Below, in pieces: positions 15,803-20,910 of a DNA stretch of 37,906 nucleotides. The stretch covers positions 1 through 37,906 of IMG/VR virus record IMGVR_UViG_3300036760_000519; one strand, given 5' to 3'. The position numbers and the translations under genes are program-made. The stretch is from a virus. Position 1 is the stretch's first letter. The number at the start of each line of letters is the position of its first letter. The notes beneath the pieces were generated by a model. It saw nothing but the letters and a program-made list of their open reading frames with translations. It did not search any database and was not told the origin of the DNA.

Positions 15803-17410
15803 CTACGCCCATGAAAGCATGCTGCCGCGCGCCTCCTCGCGCCGCGCCCAGCGCTCATCGGCATTCGCGAATTCGATCCCGGATGTCGCCTCGAACTCGT
15901 AATCCCACGCGTACCAGATCCGGCATTCGCCGCGGGCGCCCTTGCCGCCGGCCCCGCCGACGCTGGTGCCGCCGGCCCCGCCGCCGCCGCCGCCGCCTGG
16001 CGCGCCGCCATCGCCGCCCGCCCCGCCGGTGCCGCTGTCTTGTCCGCCGCCGCCGCCGCCGCCCGAACCGCCGCGGCCTCCGGTGCCGGCCGCGCCGACG
16101 CCGCCGGCGCCGCCGTTGACGGCGCCCAATGTCCCACCGCCGCCGCTGGCCGATGACATGGCAGGCGAAACGAGGCCGCCGGCCGCCCCCGCGGTCTCGA
16201 CGTTGCCCGTCGTGACCCCGCCGCCGCCGCCGCCGGCGCCGCTGCCCCACAGCGAGCGCCCGCCGGCCGTGGCGACCTGCGCCACGCTGACGCCGCCGCC
16301 GCTGCCACCGCCATACTCGGCGGCCAGGCCGACGTTGTTGGCGCCGCTGACGGGGGCGCCGGCGCCGCCGGATTGATGGCTGGTGGTGGCCGTGACTTGG
16401 GGGCCGGGCAGGCCGCCGGCCAAGCCGGTGATGCCGCCCTGCTGGCCGGCCTGTCCGGTGCCGGCGCCACTGCCGCCGGCCTCGGCCACCGCGGTAATGC
16501 GGCCGAAGGCGCCGCCGCCGCCGGCGTATCCGGTCAGCAGCGCGCCGAACGTCGTGTCGGTCCCGTTGGCGCCGACCGTGCCGACCGCGCTGGAACCGCC
16601 GGCCGCCGCCGTCGTCTGCGTGGCGACCGTCACCGTTATCGAGGCGCCGCCGGCGCCGACGGCGGACGCCAGGAATTCGCCATCGGCCCGCGAGGCCGCG
16701 CCGCCGCCGCCGCCGCCGTTGCGGTTGAGCCCTGCCGAGGTGCCGCCGCCGCCGCCGCCGCCGCCGCCGCCGCCCCAGCATTGCACGTAGATGCGTTGGA
16801 TTTTCGTCGGCACGATGAAGGTGCCATCGGCCGTGAAGGCGACATAGCCGCCATTGATCAGTTCGGTGAACCAGGCCGAACCGTCGGTGTATATCAGCCG
16901 GGTCTCGCCTTGGTACATCGTGATCGTCGTCAGGCCGTCGATGGTCTCGGCGCCGTTGGGATCGACGGTGACGACGCCGGTGCCTTCGTTGACGATGCGC
17001 GCCCACCAACCGTCGGCCAGCGTGGCGGCCGCCGTCAGCGTGAAGGTGAAGGTGCCGGAGGTCGCGGCGATGGATTTGGCGCGGTCGGCGGCGGCGACGG
17101 TGTAGTTCGCCGTCTTGGTCAGCCGGACCAGGCCGCCGATCTGCTTGACCGTCCAACTCTCGTTCGAGGTATTCGTGACGTTGACGGCCGGGATGGCCTT
17201 GCTGCCCAAGAAATCGCTGGTCGCCGACAGCGCACTCACCTTCGTATCTGCGGCCCACGCCGCACCAAAATGGAGGAGAACCCCGAGTCCGATACCAGCG
17301 AAAGCACTACGGTGCACTCGCCCCTGTTGGAGCGAAATTAGCAGCCACAGGCCAAACAAGATTATGGCGAAGTCGCCAGCCAGTTGGACGCCGAAGAGCA
17401 GATTCGCCAT
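15803..17410 (-). CDS. Gly-rich tail fibre/adhesin with hydrophobic N-terminus
   Basis: A 535-aa protein with three parts. Residues 1-54 contain two hydrophobic segments (AIILFGLWLLISL and AFAGIGLGVLLHFGAAWA) ending in a signal-peptidase-like AWA-A site. Residues 55-210 are a beta-rich fibre body (TKVSALSATSDF ..., 'GYVAFTADGTFIVPTKIQRI'). Residues about 215-490 are extremely Gly-rich, with runs of 6-11 Gly, ending 'ARGECRIWYAWD'. Gly-rich tips of this kind in other phage adhesins (for example the gp38-type adhesin of phage S16) fold as packed polyglycine-II helices and contact the host receptor. The ATG abuts the HNH stop codon (TAG ATG). The membrane-like N-terminus is odd for a virion protein and may be a fused or domesticated segment. 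Confidence 0.75.
   Translation of the reverse strand: MANLLFGVQLAGDFAIILFGLWLLISLQQGRVHRSAFAGIGLGVLLHFGAAWAADTKVSALSATSDFLGSKAIPAVNVTNTSNESWTVKQIGGLVRLTKTANYTVAAADRAKSIAATSGTFTFTLTAAATLADGWWARIVNEGTGVVTVDPNGAETIDGLTTITMYQGETRLIYTDGSAWFTELINGGYVAFTADGTFIVPTKIQRIYVQCWGGGGGGGGGGGTSAGLNRNGGGGGGAASRADGEFLASAVGAGGASITVTVATQTTAAAGGSSAVGTVGANGTDTTFGALLTGYAGGGGAFGRITAVAEAGGSGAGTGQAGQQGGITGLAGGLPGPQVTATTSHQSGGAGAPVSGANNVGLAAEYGGGSGGGVSVAQVATAGGRSLWGSGAGGGGGGVTTGNVETAGAAGGLVSPAMSSASGGGGTLGAVNGGAGGVGAAGTGGRGGSGGGGGGGQDSGTGGAGGDGGAPGGGGGGGAGGTSVGGAGGKGARGECRIWYAWDYEFEATSGIEFANADERWARREEARGSMLSWA
16742..16776. repeat. Trinucleotide (CCG/GGC) run encoding poly-Gly
   Basis: About eleven consecutive GGC codons (read on minus) encode the longest Gly run of the fibre, just after 'VQCWG'. 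Changes in repeat number would alter fibre-tip length in whole codons without a frameshift. It is the purest of several GGC-rich stretches between 15940 and 16780. Confidence 0.6.

Positions 17411-20910: not shown

Follow-up and report, generated by a model that had tools for sequence, protein, structure and literature searches.

In the window considered here (the whole 37.9-kb stretch of DNA that was analysed, a single virus record with its head-tail block on the minus strand) and in dozens of uncultured relatives, part of the phage adhesion apparatus probably leaves the cytoplasm and, to judge from sequence, would be locked by disulphides before the cell bursts. It is assumed that tailed-phage virions are put together in the reducing cytoplasm, and the initial annotation, which drew attention to export-like N-termini in three genes of the fibre region, had reasoned that virion fibres should not need export; this applies to the cultured relatives looked at here, but it gives no ground to exclude use in the virion. 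The three genes are indeed neighbours, but they are not strictly consecutive, an HNH endonuclease gene lying between the second and the third. The layout of the region is as follows.

24997-25905, minus strand: capsid protein, from a weak PHROG head-protein match
21294-22004, minus strand: SU10-type head-tail adaptor (Pfam PF24175, E 8e-17)
20907-21290, minus strand: 127-aa protein upstream of the 955-aa gene, without signal and without cysteine
18043-20910, minus strand: 955-aa repeat protein of the fibre region, with a GTG start, a Sec signal, eight cysteines in the mature part and a C-terminal jelly roll
17846-18046, minus strand: 66-aa protein with a Sec signal and two cysteines in the mature part, in ATGA overlap with the 955-aa gene
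17411-17845, minus strand: free-standing HNH endonuclease without export signal (phrog_826, E 3e-35; Pfam HNH_3)
15803-17410, minus strand: 535-aa Gly-rich fibre (phrog_863, tail), with a membrane segment and a signal, and two cysteines after AWA-A
12755-14563, minus strand: 602-aa tail-fibre-like protein without signal, with a C-terminal phrog_14820 domain
10764-12548, minus strand: tail nozzle / stabilization protein at the downstream end of the block (phrog_3287), with cultured relatives

The position of the SU10-type adaptor places the genes of the putatively exported proteins inside the head-tail block. The phrog_14820 domain of the 602-aa protein is also found in a signal-bearing protein of another viral contig (L004, 9392-11116). 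Two free-standing endonuclease genes interrupt the fibre module, one at 14566-15528 (minus strand) that is GIY-YIG-like by eye and the HNH gene, and insertion of the latter may have affected the 535-aa gene at its 5' end. Elsewhere in the window an 869-aa ORF at the expected terminase position (32153-34762, minus strand) carries LAGLIDADG / Hom_end homing-endonuclease domains at residues 283-354, which probably mark an intein in the terminase large subunit, and an ORF at the contig end (37103-37906, minus strand) contains low-complexity repeats of the AWSAAWSAA type.

Signals were called with a home-made predictor built on a von Heijne matrix together with charge and hydrophobicity rules, and known exported and cytosolic proteins served as controls; 8 of the 9 exported proteins passed, PhoA being missed through one charge rule. 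When the approximately 41 genes called in the window were scanned at their annotated starts a signal was found only in the 955-aa and 66-aa proteins, and allowing internal starts added the 535-aa protein. The false-call rate was 1.4% for shuffled N-termini from the window, 1.3% for shuffles of the 955-aa protein itself and 6.6% for those of the 66-aa protein, and these shuffles, taken with the clustering of signals described below, speak strongly against chance hydrophobic N-termini. The window proteins have the features of substrates of Sec and signal peptidase I, namely a positive n-region, an uncharged hydrophobic core and a small-x-small site. None of the three has a lipobox cysteine at +1, the residue after the described cut being Gln, Gly or Ala, and there is no RR in their N-termini (MIRLRALL, MMRAFAWL and MHRSAFAG), so that processing by signal peptidase II as a lipoprotein, or by the twin-arginine (Tat) route, was ruled out. 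The features bearing on the signals and on the 955-aa protein are these.

20916-20921, minus strand: Shine-Dalgarno sequence GAGGAG for the GTG start of the 955-aa gene
20845-20910, minus strand: predicted signal peptide of the 955-aa protein, MIRLRALLITAALWFAAGPAMA, predictor score 10.2, cut AMA-QT
20494-20547, minus strand: Cys122...Cys139 pair (sequence GC-x16-CG), with identical spacing twice in L004 (seen as L017)
20305-20319, minus strand: Cys198-x3-Cys202 pair (sequence CLSGC)
19924-19938, minus strand: Cys325-x3-Cys329 pair (sequence CITGC)
18046-18360, minus strand: C-terminal jelly-roll domain, residues 851-955, with Cys891 and Cys912 (AlphaFold2 pLDDT 89.3, pTM 0.80)
17252-17317, minus strand: predicted signal of the 535-aa protein, MHRSAFAGIGLGVLLHFGAAWA, read from an internal GTG at 17317, score 13.2, cut AWA-AD, the rest starting ADTKVSAL

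The 955-aa gene runs from the GTG at 20910 to 18043 on the minus strand, and QT follows its predicted signal. There is an in-frame ATG at codon 21, but it has no Shine-Dalgarno sequence, and a relative with 80% DNA identity (L005, whose adaptor is 73% identical to that of the window) has Trp at this codon and keeps the signal, MIFRRLLIAGLLWLAAGSAWA followed by QA. A mis-called start was rejected on account of the Shine-Dalgarno sequence at the GTG and of a relative which has the signal and lacks the codon-21 ATG. The 66-aa protein (18046-17846) starts in the ATGA overlap with the 955-aa stop and begins MMRAFAWLLSFALCAISGAALA followed by GK; it is positive for a signal, but the matrix sets the cut a few residues before the site originally described, leaving the cleavage site ambiguous. 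Hence the AMA-Q and AWA-A sites proposed by the initial annotation are also predicted here, but ALA-G in the 66-aa protein is uncertain. The 535-aa gene has two candidate starts. From the ATG at 17410 (to 15803) the product has a membrane segment at about residues 12-28 and then VHRSAFAGIGLGVLLHFGAAWA followed by ADTK, and from the internal GTG at 17317 it begins directly with a signal. The suggestion that a better start might lie downstream of the hydrophobic stretch therefore fails for the 955-aa gene, and in the 535-aa gene the downstream start itself yields a signal; the claim of export-like N-termini holds, with the third protein being either a membrane segment followed by AWA-A or the product of an internal start.

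No family was found for the 955-aa protein in Pfam or PHROG searches and no solved structure is related to it by sequence; the full-length AlphaFold2 model has a pLDDT of 35. The modelled jelly roll (105 C-terminal residues), from alignments built without rows from phage records, has as its closest folds Ena appendage subunits, phage cement and turret proteins, a part of a phage baseplate and a phage tail fibre, and these matches, at Z of about 8 to 10, indicate a shared fold only. The best of them are the Bacillus Ena endospore appendages (Z 10.1 and 9.9), which form a disulphide-linked polymer, but the Ena fold is also common to viral capsids and phage cement proteins, and the likeness to the window jelly roll is one of fold. 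The cysteine-bearing repeat positions of the 955-aa protein are not cysteine in its other repeats, nor in relatives without a signal. No relative of the 66-aa protein was found in the databases or phages searched, and relatives of the 535-aa protein were sought in viral contigs, where none was confirmed.

Viral contigs and four uncultured phage records yielded relatives of the 955-aa protein, of which 63 were retained after duplicates, truncated and misframed cases had been dropped, with frames taken from tblastn. A signal was present in 51 of the 63 (by a strict or a permissive call, two being set by eye), a share that is biased because the queries were themselves partly signal-bearing; the tests of cysteines, clustering and grafting are independent of it. 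The cysteine count of the mature part was even in 48, odd in 2 and zero in 1 of the relatives with a signal, as against 1, 6 and 5 of those without (cysteine density, p = 2e-7), the counts ranging from 2 to 12 in signal-bearing relatives (even in 48 of the 50 that were non-zero) and from 0 to 3 in the twelve signal-less ones. The parity of related proteins is not independent; with one member per cluster the signal-bearing relatives still gave 25 even and 2 odd counts at 50% identity (p = 3e-6) and 9 and 1 at 40% (p = 0.011), and at 35% too few clusters were left. At C-x3-C positions both cysteines were present in 23 cases, the first only in 5, the second only in 3 and neither in 183 where there was a signal, compared to 0, 1, 0 and 52 where there was none; within repeats the two residues of a pair tend to be present or absent together. 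From what is established about disulphide formation, paired cysteines are a mark of proteins that mature in an oxidising compartment, and they point to such maturation independently of any signal prediction.

An important consideration is whether the signal belongs to one gene or to its surroundings. Neighbour counts, made with our own gene caller, showed signals in 38 of 88 genes at positions +1 and +2 downstream of a family member, in 10 of 47 at -1 and in 10 of 216 five or more genes away; where the family member itself had no signal, only 1 of 18 genes at +1 and +2 (counted by eye) carried one. Signals thus cluster around the family member, and bearing them characterises a phage's fibre module as a whole and not one gene in it, so that the contention that the shared feature of adjacent genes goes beyond chance is not only upheld but generalises to dozens of phages. 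Cysteines were even in number in 47 and odd in 10 of the signal-bearing neighbour proteins, as against 147 and 200 in other genes. The exported neighbours include a laminin-G lectin (L015), an apiosidase (L070, E 1e-41) and a weak, possible polysaccharide lyase (L076). The L070 protein (7220-8620, viral contig) combines a signal, a full apiosidase catalytic domain and a collagen-binding-like domain, and L093 (4073-12504) has as many as seven genes with signals almost in a row, one of them encoding a 902-aa protein with 20 cysteines and three DUF4215 repeats.

The manner in which signals are joined to fibre proteins is also informative. Cleavage of the 535-aa protein would leave ADTKVSAL, which is the common fibre N-terminus from its usual second residue on, and in this protein, as in L024 (7396-8271), L039 (8515-9216) and L078 (7103-7837), the signal replaces the initiator Met, MADTKITAL... 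giving way to AWA-ADTKVSAL...; the L024 signal fails the strict call only by a net charge of 0, and the motif match in L078 is loose. The comparison with homologous fibre N-termini called for at the outset bears this out: 42 distinct ordinary members of the fibre family have Met at the graft point, where the window protein has its signal, none of them carries a signal and their cysteine parity is random. Two adjacent genes in L050 (4812-5213 and 5221-7050) encode unrelated mature parts behind one and the same 19-residue signal (56 of 57 nt identical), and their DNA similarity stops at the AWA cleavage site. It would be difficult to account for a unit that is duplicated and attached precisely at the cleavage site if the signal served no purpose. 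A DNA-pattern search for fibre N-termini preceded by Ala returned no match, but it covered AAR/AGR codons only and also missed the known L024 and L039 cases, and so says little.

No credible fibre signal was found in DSL-LC04, CRP-902, phiM5, Octadecabacter DB virus 2, three Rhizobium phages or the uncultured ct7L0027; what the predictor did flag in these phages was a single structural protein of DSL-LC04 and a small number of lysis-type or nuclease genes. The fibre signal is therefore probably a derived trait. The ordinary podovirus fibres of Sinorhizobium phage phiM5 (gp19) and Roseobacter phage CRP-902 (gp50) resemble the window proteins in their place in the head-tail block and their modular build, and share with the 535-aa protein the common N-terminus (MADTK/SKITAL), but they have no signal and few cysteines, whereas here the signal replaces the initiator Met and the cysteines are paired. 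Relatives of the C-terminal domain are also encoded in three draft genomes of Acidobacteriota (prophage-like L227, L228 and L229), two of them near genes that are terminase-like by eye, indicating that some hosts are diderm bacteria. The next gene in L227 (8396-9151) encodes a protein with a signal and eight cysteines.

Cysteine parity, clustering and grafting together make export and disulphide formation well supported, by sequence only. The fibre region would encode adhesion-type proteins made with the other late structural genes, the host Sec pathway would export them and signal peptidase I cut them, and the periplasm would oxidise them to a disulphide-bonded form; export by Sec, cleavage and periplasmic oxidation are, as a set, very probable. 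What the exported proteins then do is a matter for greater caution. Tentatively, the best explanation overall is that they are accessory fibres or spikes, matured in the periplasm and joining completed virions once lysis breaches the inner membrane, in which case export would be a maturation route providing oxidising conditions for disulphide-stabilised fibres exposed to the environment. Use in the virion is favoured by the position of the genes between those for capsid, adaptor and nozzle, by a relative without a signal that occupies a comparable place in L016, by the fact that cleavage gives the 535-aa family back its mature fibre N-terminus and by a C-terminal jelly roll of the kind seen in phage cement, turret and fibre proteins. 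Against it, the window also has an unexported fibre (12755-14563), so that the exported proteins need not be in the virion, and the fibres of phiM5, which is annotated with a particle proteome, have no signal; the enzymatic-looking exported neighbours fit a secreted role as well. With only slightly less confidence this may be widened: many tailed phages from the environment, some of Acidobacteriota among them, may export fibre and spike subunits by Sec, form their disulphides in the periplasm and add them to virions at lysis. In the literature searched exported phage proteins are described singly or a few at a time, not as fibre modules, of which no description was found, and such a split assembly route is not described for tailed phages. 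One such single protein is the signal-bearing gp40 esterase of Xanthomonas phage PBR31, which is similar to tail-associated hydrolases but is encoded near the lysis genes and has been read by its authors as a lysis aid (PMC10975493).

It is rather unlikely, if still to be reckoned with, that the proteins are exported copies of phage binding domains which are not parts of the virion and which, placed in the periplasm or on the cell surface, occupy receptors or alter surface sugars, blocking superinfection or re-adsorption to debris. This was the thrust of the original proposal of export to the cell surface, of which the export is borne out by cysteine parity and signal grafting but the masking of receptors or change of surface has no direct support. 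The lectin and glycan-enzyme domains among the exported neighbours and the presence of a separate unexported fibre would suit such a role, and there are precedents. Lambda Lom is a signal-bearing outer-membrane protein encoded between the tail spike and fibre genes (PMC12309495), and, as with similar exported phage envelope proteins, its gene stands among tail genes as here, but Lom is a beta-barrel, whereas here the one modelled domain is a jelly roll, several adjacent genes are exported and signal-less relatives exist. Porphyromonas gingivalis phages (proposed Nixviridae) have several proteins with Q-rule signal peptides, of function reported unknown (PMC10367356), likewise adapted to the host Sec system, but in another host phylum, the likeness drawn here being one of description. 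As for traits of the Cor / Llp / Lom type, the window proteins have no lipobox, and the one domain modelled, at the C-terminus of the 955-aa protein, is a jelly roll and no outer-membrane barrel, although most of that protein gave no usable model. A locus may also hold as many as six or seven genes with signals, some of them very large, which seems a high price for exclusion, and the genes lie inside the structural block, where late expression would be expected.

That secreted enzymes and lectins loosen the capsule or matrix around the infected cell, aiding release and spread, is improbable. The apiosidase, the weak polysaccharide lyase and the laminin-G lectin speak for it. Against it, the three window proteins have no recognised enzymatic domain, in most of the exported neighbours tested no catalytic domain was recognised either, and another system would be required to pass the outer membrane. 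Finally, the notion that the hydrophobic N-termini do not serve export at all, being chance, mis-called starts or membrane-interacting tips of fibres assembled in the cytosol, draws on the in-frame ATG of the 955-aa gene and the ambiguous start of the 535-aa gene but is very improbable given that even, paired cysteines occur only with signals, that signals cluster, that L005 lacks the internal ATG and that grafting and copying are precise at the cleavage site.

If fibre modules are exported and oxidised, as on the preferred reading, then either a branch of virion assembly runs through the periplasm or infected cells are systematically decorated with phage binding proteins. In both cases the understanding of host range, superinfection and environmental stability in many uncultured phages would change. 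The signature itself, a signal with even, paired cysteines in neighbouring fibre genes, provides a way to find such phages.
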